Part shown: positions 9,031-17,342 of the stretch, in pieces
How the letters are laid out: every line of letters starts with the position of its first letter
How positions within the stretch are numbered: position 1 is the first letter of the stretch
NCBI GenBank assembly: GCA_937868765.1
Contig: CALMNL010000002.1
Span: 1 to 64,000, forward strand
DNA length: 64,000 nucleotides
Direction: 5' to 3'
Origin: an uncultured Desulfatitalea sp.
GTDB taxonomy: Bacteria > Desulfobacterota > Desulfobacteria > Desulfobacterales > Desulfosarcinaceae
Made by a program: the position numbers and the translations under genes
The notes under the pieces: generated by a model
Database searches by the model: none
The model's input: only the letters and a program-made list of their open reading frames with translations
Told to the model about the DNA's origin: nothing

Positions 9031-9315
9031 CTTCTTCACCTCTTCGGGTGTCAAGGGGCGCTCGACAGCGGGAATGCCGGGACGGCCGCGCAGATGCATG
9101 ATTGGATCGTCCCCTGGCAGCGGGCGGCACTGGGAATCAGGAGCGCATGCCGGCTGAAAGCTATCAAAGAGCATGCCAGACCCGGGGGGATTTTGAAATG
9201 GCATTTTTTGTGCTTGTCGTACCATCATGATGCAGTGCCACCGGTCATGCCGCAGCTGCTGGCAGACACCCCGAACCGGATGCCGCCTGGGCTGTCGCCA
9301 AAAGGAGATTTCGAT

Positions 9316-9735
9316 TTGAGAAGCGGTTGGTTCAGACCGTGCGAGCGGGTGGGGCGGTGGGGCGCCCTCGGCGTGATATTGCTGGTCATGGCCTGTGCCG
9401 GCCAGCCGCCTGCACCGCCCCCGCCGCCTGCGGCGCAATTCCAGCAGAGCGGGTTGGCCAGCGTCTATGCGCAGCGCCTGCACGGCCGGCGGACGGCCAG
9501 CGGCGAACGTTACGACCGTCACGCCTTCACGGCCGCCCACCGCCATTTGCCTTTCGGCACGCTGGTGAAGGTCGTCAACCTGAAAAACGGTCGCGAGGTG
9601 AAGGTGCGCATCAATGATCGCGGACCGTATCGCAAGGGACGGATCATCGACTTGTCCTATGCCGCGGCCAAGCAACTGGAAATGCTCAGGGAGGGTGTGA
9701 CGCATGTGAAAATCAACGCTTTACACCCCGAGTGA
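9316..9735 (+). CDS. rlpA: RlpA-like septal ring lytic transglycosylase lipoprotein
   Basis: 139 aa. The start is taken as TTG 9316, seven bases after AAAGGAG; upstream in-frame codons belong to a long antisense frame. The lipobox VMAC predicts lipid anchoring. The mature part is a double-psi beta-barrel with [41 protein letters not shown] and the catalytic-type [20 protein letters not shown]. RlpA cleaves denuded peptidoglycan glycan strands at septa. There is no SPOR domain, so this is the short form. Confidence 0.88.
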
Positions 9736-9838
9736 TCGTGTTTATAAGACATCCTTGAAATCCCTCCCAAAATTCATTGGCGATCCAATCACAGATCGCA
9801 TACCCTTTGGCGGGCAGCCAAAAGAAAGGAAGACGAAC

Positions 9839-10291
9839 ATGGCGGGTATGATCAAGGAGTTTAAAGAGTTCGCGATGCGTGGCAATGTGGTGGACATGGC
9901 CGTCGGTATCATCATCGGCGCGGCCTTCGGCGCCATCGTGCAATCCCTGGTGGCCGATGTCATCATGCCGCCCATCGGGTTTGTGCTGGGCAACGTGGAT
10001 TTCTCCAATCTCTTCCTCACTATTAAGGACGGCGCCGTGGCCGGACCGTATGCCTCCCTGGCCGAAGCCCAGAAAGCGGGCGCCGTGACGATCAACTACG
10101 GCATGTTCGCCAACAAGATTATCAGCTTCATTATCGTGGCCTTCGCGGTGTTCATGCTGGTGCGCGGTATGAACAAACTGATCAAGAAGGAAAAGCCCGC
10201 GGAGACCACCAAGGATTGCCCGCGCTGCTTCACCAGTATCCCCCTCAAGGCGCAGCGTTGCCCCAATTGCACCTCGGAACTGAACGCCTGA
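9839..10291 (+). CDS. mscL: Large-conductance mechanosensitive channel MscL with C-terminal zinc ribbon
   Basis: 150 aa from ATG 9839, behind AAAGGAAGACGAAC. The N-terminus MIKEFKEFAMRGNVVDMAVG and the pore helix IIIGAAFGAIVQSLVADVIMPPIG are diagnostic. A periplasmic loop and a second membrane helix (ISFIIVAFAVFMLVRGMNKL) follow. After the second helix the sequence ends in CPRC (127, 130) and CPNC (141, 144), a zinc-ribbon pair in the place of the usual charged cytoplasmic helix. The channel releases solutes at high membrane tension; the ribbon could alter gating or assembly, which is inference. Confidence 0.93.
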   Translation: MAGMIKEFKEFAMRGNVVDMAVGIIIGAAFGAIVQSLVADVIMPPIGFVLGNVDFSNLFLTIKDGAVAGPYASLAEAQKAGAVTINYGMFANKIISFIIVAFAVFMLVRGMNKLIKKEKPAETTKDCPRCFTSIPLKAQRCPNCTSELNA

Positions 10292-10386: not shown

Positions 10387-13146
10387 TTATCCTTTATTCT
10401 TCGCCCTGGACTCCTCCAGAATGCTCTTAATCTTCAGTGAAAGCTCGGAAATATTATACGGCTTTTGAATGAAGCCATTGCAGCCCCTTTTCAAGATCCT
10501 GTCCGCCTGGCCATTGATGGCATATCCGCTGCACAGAAGCGCCGGCATATTCGGACGGATCTCGCGGATGCCATCGAATATCGCGCCACCATCCATTCCC
10601 GGGATAATCATGTCGATCATCACCAGATCGATCTCATTGCCCATGTCCGCGATCACTTTGACGGCTTCCTGACCGTCCGTGCACGCCAAGACACGGTAGC
10701 CCAATCGCTCCAGCATGGCCCGGCCGACATCGATAATCATCTGCTCATCGTCGATCAGAAGGATGGTGGCCGATCCCTGGACGAGTTGTGCTTCGGTGGG
10801 GATCTCCCGATCTGCTTCTTTATCGGATGCCGGCAGATAGATATTGAACGTGGTTCCGTGGCCTGCTTCGCTGTACACCGTAATCATGCCGCCGTGATTC
10901 TTGATGATGCCGTAGGCGGAGGCCAGCCCCAGGCCGGTTCCGCGCCCCTTTTCCTTGGTCGTGAAGAACGGGTCGAAAATTTGCAGACGAATGGCTTCGC
11001 TCATGCCACAACCGGTATCCGTGACCGAAACCTTGACGTAGCGCCCCGGTCTGGTCTCATGGGCTTGGCAATAGGCCTCATCCAGCCGGACCACCTTCGT
11101 TTCCAGAAACAGCTCTCCGCCCTCAGGGGGCATGGCCTGCCATGCATTGATATACATATTCAGGAGCACTTGTTCGATTTGTCCCCTGTCCGCGTCCACT
11201 ACCGGCGGCGATGCCTGACATTTGGTATGGATTCGGATCTCTTTCTTGGTTCGCCCGAACATGGTGGCGCTGCTTTGCACCAGTTCATTCATGTCGATGG
11301 GTCTGACCTCGTATTTGCCACCCCTGGCGAAACCCAGCAGTTGCTGGGTGAGCTGTGTCGCACTGCGGATGTATTCTTCTATGGCACGGATCTGTTCCCG
11401 ATGGGGGTGGGCAGCGTTCAAGTCCATGGAAATCAAGGATGCGCGGCCCTGCATGCCCATGAGCAGATTGTTGAAGTCGTGCGCAATCCCTCCGGCAAGC
11501 GTTCCGATCGCCTCGAATTTCTGGATCTGCAAGAGTTTCAGGGCCGTCAGTTTGTTTTCAGTAATGTCCCGCGTGATGGAAATCAGGTGCAGCACACCCT
11601 GCAGGGAGATGACCCTGGCCGACATCAAGCCGGTGAGCAGGGCACCGTCTTTCCTTTGGAATTGCGCTTCGAGGTTTTGGTAATACCCCTTTTCTTGAAG
11701 GCCGCGGATCAACTTTTGCCGGTCCGCCGGATCATGCCATATATTCAGGTCCAGGGAGGTCCGGCCGATAACCTCCTGCCGGGAATAACCGGTGGTGCGG
11801 GTGAACCCCTCATTGATGTCGATGTAGAGACCGTCCTCGAAACGGGTGATGCTCACTGCGTCCGGGCTGGAGTCAAATGTCAGGCGGAATTTCTCCTCGC
11901 TTTCCCGCAACGCATCCTCGGTTATCTTGCGTTGGGTGATGTCACGGGATACGGCGACGATTTCCACGGGCTTGCCCTCCTTGTCGCGCAAAAAGGAGAG
12001 GCTGACTTCCATCCAGATGACGGAGCCGTCCTTCTTGTATTCTTCCAGTTCCATGGTCCGCGTTCGGTCGGGATCGGCCGTTCCGCTGGTCTCCAACAGC
12101 AGCTCTTCCTGGAATGCGGCAATGGCCTTCTTCATGGAATCGGGGGTCAAGACCTCTTCGAGCTTCTGCGCCATGGCTTCTGGAACGCTGAACCCGCGGA
12201 CGCGCAGGCTGGCTGGGCTCACGTAGGTAAACTGCAGGTTCATATCCAGGATCGATATCAGATCAGCCGTGTTCTCGGCGATCAGGCGATATCTTTTTTC
12301 ATTCTCCCGAAGGGCCTCTTCCGCTCGAATTCGTTTTGAAATGTCAATCCCCACGCCCAATAGATAAGCCTTTCCGGCAAGCTCCAAGCGGGCGCCGGTC
12401 AAGAGAAAAGGAATCGATCCGCCGGTTTTGGTCAAGAGGGGCGATTCGATCATACTCTCGCCTTTTTCCATTGCCATTTCCACGGCACTAAGCACCGCCT
12501 TTTTTGCATCCGGTAAGGGCCACTCCAGGATTGACCGGTTCTTGATCTCGCCGGGGCCGAAGCCCAAAAGGGTCTCATGATTCTTATTCCAGCGCACCAG
12601 GCGCAACTCGGGGTAAGCGTAAAGGTAGAAAATACCCGGCAGGCTGTCGAGCAGCCTTTTCATGAGCAGCTGTTCCTGCAGCAGCGCTTCCTCTGCCCGC
12701 TTGCCGTCTGTGATGTCGCGCCAAATGCAATGATACACATGACGCGTTTCAAGATGGATCACCTGCGCCGTCACATGCACATGCCTGATTTCACCATCCC
12801 TGGTGCGCTGGAGCGTCTCAAAACTATCGAACCCGTTTTTCAGTATTTCCTGAATATGGGCTGTGGTCTCTTCGGCCGTTTCCTTCGCCTCGATATCCGA
12901 CACGCGCAATTGGGCAAACTCATCTCGGGTATATCCCAGCTGCCGGCAGACCTGATCGTTGAAATCGATGGGCCGGGCGCTTTCAGGGTCTATGGTCACC
13001 ACACCATCTGTTCCGTGCAGAAAGAAGGCGCGATAGTAACGCTCCGATTCCTTTAGCGCCTTTTCCCTCCTGAGAGCGGATTCCAGTTCTTTCGAGACCT
13101 CTCTCAATTTTTGTTCTAATTCTTCGTAAGTCGGTTTCTTGTTCAC
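10387..13146 (-). CDS. Multi-PAS hybrid sensor histidine kinase with C-terminal receiver
   Basis: 919 aa, starting at GTG 13146 behind GGAG. An N-terminal coiled coil ([19 protein letters not shown]) is followed by about four PAS domains (near residues 36-150, 160-275, 280-405, 415-535), then HisKA with [13 protein letters not shown]. The ATPase domain has [18 protein letters not shown] and [16 protein letters not shown]. The receiver at the C-terminus has phospho-acceptor Asp in [11 protein letters not shown]. No membrane segment is visible, so it should be a cytoplasmic sensor of redox state or a ligand through PAS. No dedicated regulator adjoins it; it precedes the divergent arsR-hgcAB operon. 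Confidence 0.9.
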
Positions 13147-13459
13147 AGAAGATTTCTCCAGTCGCTACAAGCTGAAGCGAGTCTTTCTACCGGGCTGTCA
13201 AAATACATTTTCCAAAAATAAGCCTCTGACGTGAAATTGATAGGAAGGCATTCAGCCATTGTTTGGCCTCCTCCCCCGGCAAAACTATAACATATTAAAT
13301 TCATGTAACAAATTATCGCCCGTTTTTTTGCCTTTCTTTAAGAAATTGGACTATCGTGGAAATGACGGCGCCTGGGCGGGACTTGGGAAACGGTTTTTCT
13401 GATATTTCGAGAACATCCCCTAATATCTGACGAAACGGCACTTGACCGACACTTTGATT

Positions 13460-13503
13460 TTGACAGTCATGCTCAAATCGTTTATCGTCGATCAACGATT
13501 TGA
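13460..13503 (+). promoter_or_regulatory. Promoter and ArsR-type operator of arsR-hgcAB
   Basis: TTGACA (13460-13465), 17 bases, then TATCGT (13483-13488) form a sigma70-type promoter. A perfect inverted repeat, TCAAATCGTT (13473-13482) and AACGATTTGA (13494-13503) separated by 11 bases, covers the -10 region. Binding of the ArsR protein here would block RNA polymerase. The remaining part of the 13147-13524 gap shows nothing else I can name. Confidence 0.7.
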
Positions 13504-13524
13504 TCTGACGGAAAGGAGCCCGGT

Positions 13525-13833
13525 TTGAGCACCGCTTTGAATCCCCAAGCGACCCTGGCCGCGCCCATGGACAGCGAACGCTTTGCCGCCATATGCAGGG
13601 CCCTGTCCCATCCGGCGCGGGTACGCATCGTAGACCATCTCAGGACCATGCAGCAGTGCATCTGCGGCCAGATCGTAGAGGTGCTGCCGCTGGCCCAATC
13701 CACCGTCAGCCAGCACCTGAAAATTTTAAAAGCCTCCGGCCTGGTCAAAGGGACCATCGAAGGCCCCCGGACCTGCTACTGCCTGGATGGTGGCGTGCTG
13801 GCCCAATTCAAGGATATGGTCAAGCGATTATGA
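13525..13833 (+). CDS. ArsR/SmtB-family metalloregulator of hgcAB
   Basis: 102 aa, TTG start at 13525 behind GAAAGGAG. It is a winged-helix ArsR/SmtB repressor: CRALSHPARVRIVDHLR, then QCICGQI with Cys45 and Cys47 at the position of the alpha-3 metal site, and LAQSTVSQHLKILKASGLV as recognition helix. A second pair, Cys84 and Cys86 (CYC), lies on the wing. It is the first gene of an operon, 26 bases before hgcA. ArsR-like genes upstream of hgcAB are known in other mercury methylators. Ligand (arsenite, Hg or another metal) is not determined by the sequence. Confidence 0.88.
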   Translation: MSTALNPQATLAAPMDSERFAAICRALSHPARVRIVDHLRTMQQCICGQIVEVLPLAQSTVSQHLKILKASGLVKGTIEGPRTCYCLDGGVLAQFKDMVKRL

Positions 13834-13859
13834 CCTGAAAGGAAGAAGAGAAAGCTGAA

Positions 13860-14999
13860 ATGGAAATGTTGCCCATCTACCGGCCGCCGGCTGCTCATGC
13901 CGACGAGCCTTGCTGCGGTCCGCCGGCCGGCCCGCCCAGCAGCCCGGACGAGCGTCCCGGTTATTCGCTGTGCCGATTTGTGGAACGATTCATCCCCACG
14001 CCGGTCGGTCCTGTGCCGTGCGTCAAGACCGTATTGGATCGTCAGGATCAGCTGGGGCGCCTGCGGGTGCGGCTGGGTTACGGCCGCAACGACTACAAGG
14101 TGGCCCCCGGGCTCTATGCCACTGGAGATCCCGACGCCGATGCGCCCGTGTTGGTGACGGCCAACTACAAGCTGACTTTTGATCATCTGCGGGTTGCGTT
14201 GTCCCGAATCGATGCATGGATTCTGGTGCTGGATACCCGGGGCATCAACGTGTGGTGCGCGGCCGGCAAGGGGAGTTTCGGCACCGGGGAGTTGGTCCAT
14301 CGTGTCCAGATGACCGGCCTGGCCAAGGTGGTGCGCCACCGACGCCTGATTCTGCCTCAACTGGGTGCCACCGGGGTGGCCGGACACTGGGTGCGGCAGG
14401 CGTGCGGTTTCGAAGTGGTGTGGGGGCCGGTGCGGGCCGGGGACATCAACGCCTTTCTGGCGTCCGGGAAATGTGATCGGGCCGGCATGCGGGCGGTGAG
14501 CTTCACGCTGGGCGAACGCCTGGCGCTGGTGCCGGTGGAGATCTCCTTGCTGCGCAAGTACCTGCTCTGGGCGCTGCTGGCCATCGGCGTGGTGTCGGGT
14601 ATCGGCCCAGCCCTATTCTCTTGGTCCGCCGCCTGGCAGCGCGGGGTGCTGGCCATCGCGGCCGTGGTGGCAGGCATCGCCGCCGGCTGCGTGGCGGTTC
14701 CGCTGTGTCTGCCCTGGCTGCCGGGGCGCGCGTTTGCGCTGAAAGGCACTATCGCCGGCCTGATTCTGGGCGGGTTGATGGTTGCGCGGCTGTGGGCCAA
14801 TCCCTGGATCACACCATGGGGTGCAGTGGCGTTGCTGCTGATGGCAACCGCAGTGAGTTCTTTCCTGGCCATGAATTTCACCGGATCCACGCCTTTCACG
14901 TCGCCATCGGGCGTGGAAAAAGAGATGCGCCGGGCCATCCCCCTGCAAGCGGCCGCCATGCTGCTGGCGGCCGGGTTATGGGTCGGGGCGGCGTTTTAA
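13860..14999 (+). CDS. hgcA: Mercury methylation corrinoid protein HgcA
   Basis: 379 aa. HgcA transfers a methyl group from a corrinoid cofactor to Hg(II), making methylmercury. The diagnostic cap-helix motif NVWCAAGK is at residues 130-137, with Cys133 as predicted lower ligand of cobalt. It sits in a corrinoid-binding fold of about residues 50-230 (VLVTANYKLTFDHLR, WILVLDTRGI). The C-terminal third (about 235-379) has four to five hydrophobic helices, the membrane anchor typical of HgcA. The N-terminus carries an unusual CCG (Cys18, Cys19) in a proline-rich tail. It is followed by hgcB 29 bases later. Confidence 0.96.
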   Translation: MEMLPIYRPPAAHADEPCCGPPAGPPSSPDERPGYSLCRFVERFIPTPVGPVPCVKTVLDRQDQLGRLRVRLGYGRNDYKVAPGLYATGDPDADAPVLVTANYKLTFDHLRVALSRIDAWILVLDTRGINVWCAAGKGSFGTGELVHRVQMTGLAKVVRHRRLILPQLGATGVAGHWVRQACGFEVVWGPVRAGDINAFLASGKCDRAGMRAVSFTLGERLALVPVEISLLRKYLLWALLAIGVVSGIGPALFSWSAAWQRGVLAIAAVVAGIAAGCVAVPLCLPWLPGRAFALKGTIAGLILGGLMVARLWANPWITPWGAVALLLMATAVSSFLAMNFTGSTPFTSPSGVEKEMRRAIPLQAAAMLLAAGLWVGAAF

Positions 15000-15028
15000 C
15001 GGTTCGATCAAACCATCGGATTTGGAAG

Positions 15029-15319
15029 ATGAAAGCTCTGCGTTACCTCGAAGATGTGGTCACATTGGCCTTGGTCGATGAAAAATGTGTGGGGTGCGGG
15101 ATCTGCACCCAGGTGTGCCCCCATGGTGTTTTGGCCCTCGACGGCCGCAAGGTGTCCATCGCGGACATCAATGGGTGTATGGAGTGCGGTGCCTGTGCCC
15201 GCAACTGCCCCACCGAGGCCTTGACGGTGACGCCGGGGGTGGGGTGCGCCAGCTACATCATCCAGACCTGGATCAAGGGCAAGGAGAAAGCGGCCTGTGG
15301 AAGCAGCGGATGCTGCTGA
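15029..15319 (+). CDS. hgcB: Mercury methylation ferredoxin HgcB
   Basis: 96 aa. HgcB is the small 2[4Fe-4S] protein that reduces the HgcA corrinoid and may pass Hg(II) to it. Two full CxxCxxCxxxCP clusters are present (Cys20, 23, 26, 30 and Cys50, 53, 56, 60). Cys73 (GVGCA), strictly conserved in HgcB, and the C-terminal Cys95-Cys96 pair are both there. Start ATG 15029 gives the typical length. The gene converges on a hybrid kinase with only 10 bases between the stop codons. Confidence 0.95.
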   Translation: MKALRYLEDVVTLALVDEKCVGCGICTQVCPHGVLALDGRKVSIADINGCMECGACARNCPTEALTVTPGVGCASYIIQTWIKGKEKAACGSSGCC

Positions 15320-15329
15320 CGCCTCGGCC

Positions 15330-17342
15330 TCATCCGCCCGCACGGCCGGCGCCGTCGAGTACTTCGCGCACCGTCACCCCCAGCTTCTGGCGTACCAGCG
15401 GTTTCATGATCAAGCCATCGATGCCCAATCTCGCCATCATTTCCGGCGTCACCTTCTGACTGTAGCCGGTGCAGATCACGATGGGAATGTCCGGTCGGAC
15501 GGCACGGCATTTTTCGGCGAAGACATCACCGGTCATCCGGGGCATGGTCATATCGGTCATGACCAGATCAAAGGCACGAGGCTGCTGTTCGAAGTGCGAC
15601 AGCGCTTCCACGCTGTCGGTGTAGATCGTCACCCGGTATCCCAATCGCGCCAGAATTTCCTTGGCCAGATCGGCCAGAGGCGCTTCGTCGTCCACGAAAA
15701 GAATCCGCTCCCGGCCAAGGGGTATGAATTCCTGGCTGATTGCCTGGGGCGCCTTGGGTTGGGCGACGATGGGCAGATAGACGCTGAAGACGGCGCCCTG
15801 CCCCGCACGGCTGGACACCTTGACGGCGCCGCCGCAGCCGCGCACGATCCCCTGGACCACCGCCAGGCCCATGCCCGTTCCCTCGCCTTTTTCTTTGGTC
15901 GTGAAATAGGGATCGAAGATCCGGTCGATGACCAGGGGATCGATGCCATGGCCGGTATCGCCAACCTCCATCTTCAGGTACCGGCCGGGGCAAAGACCGG
16001 TGAGCTGATCGCAGCCGTCGGCAAGCACCTCCTCTTCGAGCAGCGCCACCCGCAGGCGGCCGCCGCTGTCGCGCATGGCATGGCTGGCATTGGTGCACAG
16101 ATTCATGATGACCTGGTGGATCTGGATCGGATCCGCGCACACGATGGCATCGCTGCGGACATCCACCTGGATATCGATGGTGGCGGGCAGGGAGGGCCGC
16201 AGCAGTTTGAGCGCCTCTTTGATGATCGGCTGGATCTGGATGGGCTTGGATTCGGTTTCGGTCTGGCGGCTGAAGGTCAGGATCTGTTGCACCAGGTCGC
16301 GCGCCCTCTGGCCGGCGCGCAGCACCTGCCCGATAAAGGTGGGATTGGAACGGCCGTGGTTGGCATCGTCCAGCGCCAGCTCCGAATAGCCCAGGATGGC
16401 GGAAAGAATGTTGTTGAAATCGTGGGCGATGCCGCCGGCCAGAGTACCGATGGCCTCCATTTTCTGGGCCTGGCGCAACCGGGTTTCGTTTTCCATGCGT
16501 TCCCGTTCCAACAATTTGACGGCACTGATGTCCGTGGCCACGTGCAGGCGCACGATGCGGCCGTCGGCCCATCGGATGGCCCGATCGTGGTGCAGAAACC
16601 AGCGTGTCCGCGCCTTGTTGGTTCCCTCCCATACCAGCACGCCTTTGGGCTGGCCATTTTCATCCAGCAATTGGGCCGGCGTGCCGTGCTGAGAGGGGCC
16701 GTCCTGACTGTAAAGGTCCTGCCAGCAGTTCGACGCGGCGCTGCCCGCGAACATGTCGCGCATGTGGCGATTCATGAATATCACCTCATTGCCGGTCATG
16801 TCCGCGGCATAGATGACGGCGTCGATGCTGTCCAGCACGGTGAGCAGGGTGTGGTGGGCTTCGCGCAGGGCGTTTTCCTTGAAGACGCTGGCCGTGACAT
16901 CGGACATGACATGGATGAAGCCGTCGAGCCGGCCCTCGTGATCGAAACGGGGGTCGATGGTGACGTCGATCCAGCGGTGGTTATGCTCGATCAGGGTGTT
17001 GTGCCGCTTCAAAAAGGTGCGAACCTGATGGCAGGGGCAGTTGGCCGGGGGGCCGTCGGTGCCGTGTACCAGTTCCCAGCAGTGGCGCCCCACGGCTTCG
17101 GCTTCGCTGCACCCCACCAGCCGGCCCATGGCCCGATTCATGCGCACGATGCGGTGGTCGGCATCGAGAACCGAGATGGCATCGGCGATGGCGTCGAAGG
17201 TAACTTGCCACTGGGCCGCCGCCTCCTGGAGTTCGGCTTCCCGTTGCCGAACCGCCTCCAGTTCGGCTTGCAGCGTTTCCGCCTGCCGGGGCAGATCGTC
17301 CGGGTTGTCCTGGGATGGCATGGCCGAAGGGGGGGTCGTCAT
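15330..17342 (-). CDS. PAS hybrid histidine kinase with C-terminal receiver
   Basis: 670 aa from ATG 17342. A coiled coil (about residues 15-45) leads to a first PAS domain with FDAIADAISVLDADHRIVR and an unusual Cys-rich loop GPPANCPCHQV. A second PAS (LLTVLDSIDAVIYAADMTG) and a PAS-like segment with PAC tail follow. HisKA has [15 protein letters not shown], the ATPase DTGHGIDPLVIDRIFDPYF and GTGMGLAVV, and the receiver DLVMTDMTMPRMTG. The Cys-rich PAS type often senses redox or metals, which is inference. It has no transmembrane segment and converges on hgcB. Confidence 0.9.
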   Translation of the reverse strand: MTTPPSAMPSQDNPDDLPRQAETLQAELEAVRQREAELQEAAAQWQVTFDAIADAISVLDADHRIVRMNRAMGRLVGCSEAEAVGRHCWELVHGTDGPPANCPCHQVRTFLKRHNTLIEHNHRWIDVTIDPRFDHEGRLDGFIHVMSDVTASVFKENALREAHHTLLTVLDSIDAVIYAADMTGNEVIFMNRHMRDMFAGSAASNCWQDLYSQDGPSQHGTPAQLLDENGQPKGVLVWEGTNKARTRWFLHHDRAIRWADGRIVRLHVATDISAVKLLERERMENETRLRQAQKMEAIGTLAGGIAHDFNNILSAILGYSELALDDANHGRSNPTFIGQVLRAGQRARDLVQQILTFSRQTETESKPIQIQPIIKEALKLLRPSLPATIDIQVDVRSDAIVCADPIQIHQVIMNLCTNASHAMRDSGGRLRVALLEEEVLADGCDQLTGLCPGRYLKMEVGDTGHGIDPLVIDRIFDPYFTTKEKGEGTGMGLAVVQGIVRGCGGAVKVSSRAGQGAVFSVYLPIVAQPKAPQAISQEFIPLGRERILFVDDEAPLADLAKEILARLGYRVTIYTDSVEALSHFEQQPRAFDLVMTDMTMPRMTGDVFAEKCRAVRPDIPIVICTGYSQKVTPEMMARLGIDGLIMKPLVRQKLGVTVREVLDGAGRAGG

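Follow-up and report, generated by a model that had tools for sequence, protein, structure and literature searches.

It matters in practice what switches on the genes for methylmercury formation, whose products, HgcA and HgcB, have a native role that is still open. We asked this question of a locus in an uncultured, sulfate-reducer-like Desulfatitalea sp. (family Desulfosarcinaceae; assembly GCA_937868765.1), whose genome comprises 5.36 Mb in 18 contigs and has a single hgcA at E <= 1e-30, a second match of 67.4 bits remaining under the cut-off. The window, by which we mean the whole stretch of 64,000 nucleotides analysed (contig CALMNL010000002.1, positions 1 to 64,000), carries on its + strand, at 13525-15319, a complete hgcR-hgcA-hgcB operon, in which hgcR encodes an ArsR-type regulator. 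By comparing this locus with its relatives, we came to consider it likely that HgcR represses its own operon from a site within the promoter and that a thiol-seeking effector, most probably of the As(III) type, derepresses it.

hgcA and hgcB behind an ArsR-type gene

The operon is laid out as follows.

13510..13518, + strand: probable ribosome-binding site GGAAAGGAG for hgcR, judged from its sequence
13525..13833, + strand: hgcR, predicted ArsR/SmtB-type repressor of 102 aa with Cys45, Cys47 and Cys86; TTG start, stop at 13833
13860..14999, + strand: hgcA, mercury-methylation corrinoid protein of 379 aa; ATG start; assigned by NF040863, the NVWCAAGK motif and hydropathy
15029..15319, + strand: hgcB, ferredoxin of 96 aa with two 4Fe-4S motifs, Cys73 and Cys95-Cys96; ATG start; assigned by NF040864

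An earlier note on this DNA had described hgcA and hgcB as a complete operon with an ArsR-type gene at its head, 26 bases upstream, and both the coordinates and the NCBIfam scores agree with it; the gap between hgcA and hgcB is 29 bases. HgcA reaches 425.7 bits against the equivalog NF040863 (cut-off 275) and HgcB 125.2 bits against NF040864 (cut-off 99). Cys133 of HgcA lies within NVWCAAGK, a form of N(V/I)WCA(A/S)GK, which we take to be the HgcA cap-helix motif, and hydropathy indicates C-terminal hydrophobic segments. The cysteines of HgcB are at 20/23/26/30 and 50/53/56/60 (the two 4Fe-4S motifs), 73, 90, 95 and 96, so that every motif named in the earlier note, from the cap helix to Cys73 and the terminal Cys pair, was found. 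Curated scores and motifs together predict that HgcAB is an Hg(II) methylation pair.

HgcR, with cysteines at 24, 45, 47, 84 and 86, matches Pfam HTH_5, scores 68.2 bits (cut-off 55) against NF033788, a general subfamily of metalloregulators, and falls below every equivalog cut-off among the NCBIfam families listed. Its start is uncertain, the possible codons being TTG at 13525, with GGAAAGGAG 6 bases upstream, or ATG at 13567. As genes, neither the operon nor its ArsR departs from kinds already described.

A probable operator conserved in hgcR-hgcA promoters

The elements before hgcR are the following.

13460..13465, + strand: -35 hexamer TTGACA, 17 bases from the -10 hexamer
13473..13503, + strand: outer inverted repeat TCAAATCGTT-N11-AACGATTTGA (10+10), from the sequence and the covariation of its flanks
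13477..13481, + strand: left (third) half-site h1, ATCGT, from the comparison of 38 loci
13483..13488, + strand: -10 hexamer TATCGT, which includes half-site h2, ATCGT (13484-13488)
13484..13499, + strand: conserved operator core ATCGT-N6-ACGAT (h2 and h3), from the comparison of promoters

The sequence agrees with the earlier claim of a TTGACA-N17-TATCGT promoter overlapped by a 10+10 repeat at 13473-13503. This repeat is unique in the genome at up to 3 mismatches. Since the window holds perfect 10+10 repeats (spacer 3-20) at some seven distinct sites, the weight of this one must come from the comparison of promoters: by itself it is weak evidence, hardly beyond chance, and it is strong as a conserved site.

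We compared 89 hgcA loci, namely the 13 of the family and the best 80 of at least 576 HgcA relatives, less 4 duplicates among these 93. hgcR was counted when an ArsR of this kind was encoded at most 1500 bases upstream of hgcA on the same strand, which gave 39 loci with hgcR (the window included), 43 without and 7 having fewer than 300 bases upstream. The core ATCGT-N6-ACGAT, at 9-10 of its 10 bases, covers the -10 box in 38 of the 39 hgcR-hgcA promoters, and is found in only 2 of the 43 loci without hgcR (L041 and L045); when the hgcR promoters were shuffled, 31 of 3900 scored as high. Of the 38 core-bearing hgcR promoters, 37 have TTGACA with no more than one of its 6 bases changed, and the spacer to the -10 box is 17 (32 loci) or 18 bases (6 loci). 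The operator that the earlier note had placed over the promoter was thereby refined: its outer palindrome stands, as the flanks covary (see below), and the part common to 38 of the 39 promoters is the inner ATCGT-N6-ACGAT, which had not been singled out. As a side observation, L014 has an intact promoter-operator before an hgcR frame broken in the helix-turn-helix region, which may be an assembly error.

We also scanned 389 genomes of the class for the 40-base pattern TTGACA-N17-TATCGT-N6-ACGAT with at most one mismatch. It occurs at 69 places in 68 genomes, and its reverse was absent among the matches listed for the same 389. hgcA was detected at E <= 1e-30 in 176 of the 389 genomes, and in 54 of the 68 that have the pattern (Fisher p = 4e-10). 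By coordinates, checked against at least 150 hgcA places, 44 of the 69 lie within 3 kb upstream of hgcA. The sequences fetched for the remaining 25 placed 9 before hgcA, 3 at a contig end, 3 before genes for HgcR-like ArsRs with a nuclease gene behind them and 10 before other genes. The hgcA matches are in pieces at two of these 9 (L189 and L194), and a third (L196) reaches only 29.9 bits before its contig ends; among the contig-end places, L200 has hgcR, and L198 and L211 have no match. Altogether, 53 of the 69 pattern matches are linked to hgcA.

Three half-sites and two registers

Next to the core, a third half-site is found in most of the 38 loci. First, in 19 an ATCGT matching in 4 or 5 bases (17 exact) stands on the left side, which gives ATCGT-N2-ATCGT-N6-ACGAT, and the window belongs to this left type. 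Second, 11 have the mirror-image ACGAT to the right, all exact, which gives ATCGT-N6-ACGAT-N2-ACGAT. Third, none has both and 8 have neither. All 11 right-type loci, which are of one Desulfobacula/Desulfotignum type, fall within a single HgcR group of 13 (support 100/99) that also contains L057 (no core) and L076 (3/5). The two inner half-sites, h2 and h3, are the most conserved.

In the window, the outer register h1/h3 corresponds to the palindrome of the earlier note. We evaluated the pairing of flanks by dealing out the right flanks anew 5000 times, a procedure that ignores relatedness among loci. For the outer register of the 19 left-type loci, 3.26 of 6 pairs were formed versus 2.17 after permutation (0/5000 as high), and 1.63 contiguous pairs versus 0.60 (2/5000 as high); shifting this register by 1 or 2 left no excess of pairing in the same loci. 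The outer register of the 11 right-type loci gave a mixed result (5/5000 as high for contiguous pairs, 575/5000 for pairs of six). No clear excess appeared in permutations of the inner register, and the inner flanks of the 8 loci that lack a third half-site on either side gave 364/5000 for pairs of six and 4362/5000 for contiguous pairs. Pairing of at least 4 bases beyond the outer half-sites is limited to 3 of the 38 loci, one of them the window. We had considered the inner register as the sole palindrome, with the outer arms accidental and lost in most relatives, and dropped this view because the permutation tests showed that the outer flanks covary. One HgcR dimer may hold either the inner (h2/h3) or the outer (h1/h3) pair. 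What this comparison adds is the conserved operator, with its inner and outer register and a third half-site that can change sides.

Candidate effector of HgcR

The solved folds closest to the predicted structure of HgcR are the As(III)-responsive winged-helix ArsR proteins 6j05 and 6j0e. Cys45, Cys47 and Cys86 are invariant in all 38 readable relatives, which makes them candidate ligands. DSSP assigns strands to residues 46-47 and 82-87 of the prediction, which places Cys47 and Cys84/86 within strands and Cys45 next to a strand; in this model Cys45, Cys47, Cys84 and Cys86 could meet in space. Of the Cys45/Cys47 sensor site proposed in the earlier note, both residues are invariant; Cys86, equally invariant, was not named there. 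If a metal ion releases HgcR, as that note predicted, arsenic is a better candidate than Hg(II). HgcR groups with other hgcA-linked ArsRs, adjoins hgcAB and has the common operator. Because of the closest fold and the three invariant cysteines, arsenic-type sensing is likelier than sensing of Hg(II).

We propose the following course of events as the probable one. hgcR, hgcA and hgcB would be transcribed together, as a single unit, from the promoter at 13460-13488. A dimer of HgcR would bind the ATCGT half-sites, including the one in the -10 box, through the inner (h2/h3) or the outer (h1/h3) pair, and would by its presence exclude RNA polymerase and so repress the operon to which its own gene belongs. 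Binding of an effector to Cys45, Cys47 and Cys86 would loosen HgcR from the DNA; for this effector, As(III) or a different metalloid with affinity for thiols is more likely than Hg(II). After this release, HgcR, HgcA and HgcB would be produced together.

Several observations weigh against this reading. The relatives were ranked by likeness to the HgcA of the window and joined to its own family, which makes the sample uneven. At L057, which has hgcR, a stretch of 700 bases contains no core. Of the 69 pattern matches, 10 precede unrelated genes, and at L207, L208 and L209 the same promoter-operator belongs to HgcR-like ArsRs whose downstream neighbour is a homologue of staphylococcal nuclease and not hgcA. 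The Cys-x-Cys (CxC) pair is also present in the sampled ars-type ArsRs, so the ligand is not told by CxC alone. Finally, no adjacent hgcR was found at 43 of the 82 hgcA loci whose upstream sequence was long enough, and for this reason control by HgcR is not general for hgcAB.

HgcR could instead be a SahR-like sensor of S-adenosylhomocysteine (SAH): HgcAB uses S-adenosylmethionine (SAM) and makes SAH, and SAH would set the amount of HgcAB. We regard this as doubtful. The abstract of a study of Pseudodesulfovibrio mercurii ND132 reportedly describes that both arsenic and SAH elicit a response. HgcAB takes its methyl group from SAM, with one SAH arising for each (PMC11588087), and SahR is an SAH-responsive ArsR-family regulator of delta-proteobacteria with a 20-bp palindrome (PMC4239095). 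However, the ArsR-type proteins encoded beside S-adenosylhomocysteine hydrolase genes (ahcY) in two related genomes (L245 and L246) are 305 and 309 aa long and join ArsR and methyltransferase domains, and their genes are preceded by ATATCAATAAATCT(A/T)GATAT and not by ATCGT-N6-ACGAT; the primer table of PMC8877191 likewise gives 1023 bases for the sahR of Ensifer. HgcR has 102 aa, no methyltransferase match and a different half-site, and adjoins hgcA. The ArsR N-domains of four such ahcY-side fusions group apart from HgcR (100/97), and metK-ahcY of this genome has neither a sahR between the two genes nor an Rfam match. SAH sensing of the SahR type is thus the less supported reading.

Alternatively, HgcR might sense Hg(II) itself and so induce its own methylation system, which we find improbable. 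Thiol groups bind Hg(II) well, and the product of the operon acts on Hg(II). Against this, HgcR has no Hg-specific feature that we could find, its closest fold is that of an As(III)-responsive ArsR, the operator core resembles a site in the ars operon of the same genome, and the published work on ND132, as cited in PMC10349881 and PMC13362967, concerns arsenic. It is hardly credible that the palindrome arose by chance or is a mere promoter feature, with the ArsR gene as a passenger: the window has its seven or so perfect repeats and one half-site does coincide with the -10 box, but the core marks 38/39 hgcR promoters versus 2/43 loci without hgcR and 31/3900 shuffles, the outer flanks covary, and 53/69 class-wide matches lie before hgcA.

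Besides the fold, two observations favour arsenic: the reported arsenic response in ND132, and the genome's own arsR-permease-acr3 operon, which has TATCGCCAAATAACGAT before arsR, with 9 of the 10 core bases. Its acr3 scores 379.1 bits (cut-off 282.8), and its permease stays under the cut-offs of its families. In relatives, the upstream stretches of seven arsR genes of the ars type were examined by eye: the right half-site ACGAT alone is present in three (L247, L248 and L255), ATCG-N8-CGAT in L249, and neither half-site in L250, L252 and L254. These upstream regions speak against general cross-talk between HgcR and ArsR operators. As a side observation, an arsR-arsM pair of this genome (arsM, arsenite methyltransferase) at about 856-857 kb of contig C4 (L155) has a different repeat, TTCGACATATGTCGAA, before arsR.

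Possible control from a distance

At L041, L045 and L210 the promoter and operator immediately adjoin hgcA, and no intervening hgcR was found. Four genomes, G102, G162, G280 and G283, likewise have the pattern in front of hgcA, the promoters of L041 and L045 being those of G102 and G283. The closest HgcR relative in G280, G162 and G102, at 44-47% identity, is encoded away from hgcA, and the core lies before its gene at 10/10, 10/10 and 9/10 bases, respectively, not at the 17-base promoter spacing. A permease gene follows this relative in G280 (under the SO_0444 and SaoE cut-offs) and in G162 (ArsP_1, PF03773, 165.2 bits); in G102 there is none in the stretch inspected.

From these few genomes of one family, we tentatively suggest that an HgcR-like ArsR encoded beside an ArsP-family permease may control hgcAB in trans, through a three-half-site operator that would be workable either way. 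Two facts speak against such a regulator: Cys86 is lost in the distant HgcR relatives, two of the three also having lost the second CxC cysteine, and G283 (79% complete) has only weak HgcR relatives. If control in trans were true, HgcAB would be part of a regulon for metalloid homeostasis, a point of relevance to its native role.

Other sites in the genome and neighbouring genes

TATCGT-N6-ACGAT with at most one mismatch occurs in the genome at 23 forward and 15 reverse places, versus 2 and 3 for the reversed control. The only other exact copy, C10:55551-55567 (within L146, in the stretch 2051-2418), precedes a small open reading frame and a methylenetetrahydrofolate-reductase-like gene (under NCBIfam cut-offs). 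This gene is present in 10 of the 11 genomes of the genus, and the nine others have at most 7 of the 10 core bases upstream of it (within up to 480 bases; less for L258). Because the core is not kept in these nine relatives, we rejected the copy as a second HgcR site, and with it a wider regulon in this genome, and take it as chance. No Rfam family reached its gathering score, as an RNA leader or riboswitch, in L148 (metK-ahcY), L146 or L001 (window 11973-15003).

Upstream of the hgc operon, window 9300-10291 holds the coding end of a lytic transglycolase (RlpA-like, DPBB_1) and an mscL gene. By eye, an mscL-like gene at L011 and an RlpA-like gene at L007, both loci without hgcR, stand immediately before hgcA. 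Genes for PAS histidine kinases with receiver domains lie on both sides of the operon, at 10387-13146 and 15330-17342, both on the - strand.

Comparison with known systems

Control of hgcAB by an ArsR is already known and the idea is not new, since in P. mercurii ND132 an upstream, co-transcribed ArsR is reported to control hgcAB, and a response to arsenic is reported there as well (both as cited in PMC10349881 and PMC13362967); this ArsR-like regulator (Gionfriddo et al. 2023) is also cited in PMC12953829. Our literature search, which did not reach the original ND132 report, found no description of an hgcAB operator, and PMC10896945 makes no mention of ArsR, arsenic, a regulator or SAH. A precise conserved operator offers a DNA probe for comparing As(III), Hg(II) and SAH in binding; it also lets ArsR-controlled hgcAB be recognised from the sequence alone and flags cases where the regulator is not adjacent.

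The window resembles ND132 in having an ArsR-family gene directly upstream of hgcAB and, as reported there, read with it; it comes from another lineage, and the likeness is one of described gene order. At L052, a locus of an uncultured Pseudodesulfovibrio, layout, cysteines and operator are as in the window. For 112 genomes, PMC7438021, in which the word "promoter" is absent, describes a gene for a putative transcriptional regulator that stands just ahead of hgcAB; by this description, it is like HgcR in position.

The As(III)-responsive ArsRs (6j05, 6j0e) and the ArsR of the genome's own arsR-acr3 share with HgcR the winged-helix fold and the CxC pair. Unlike HgcR, this own ArsR has no Cys86 and belongs to a separate group, and the neighbour of HgcR is hgcAB. 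SahR, in turn, has in common with HgcR an ArsR-type DNA-binding domain and a palindromic operator. It differs in its targets, which belong to the SAM cycle (PMC4239095), and the ArsR-type proteins encoded beside ahcY in relatives, 303-309 aa long, have a methyltransferase domain and another half-site.
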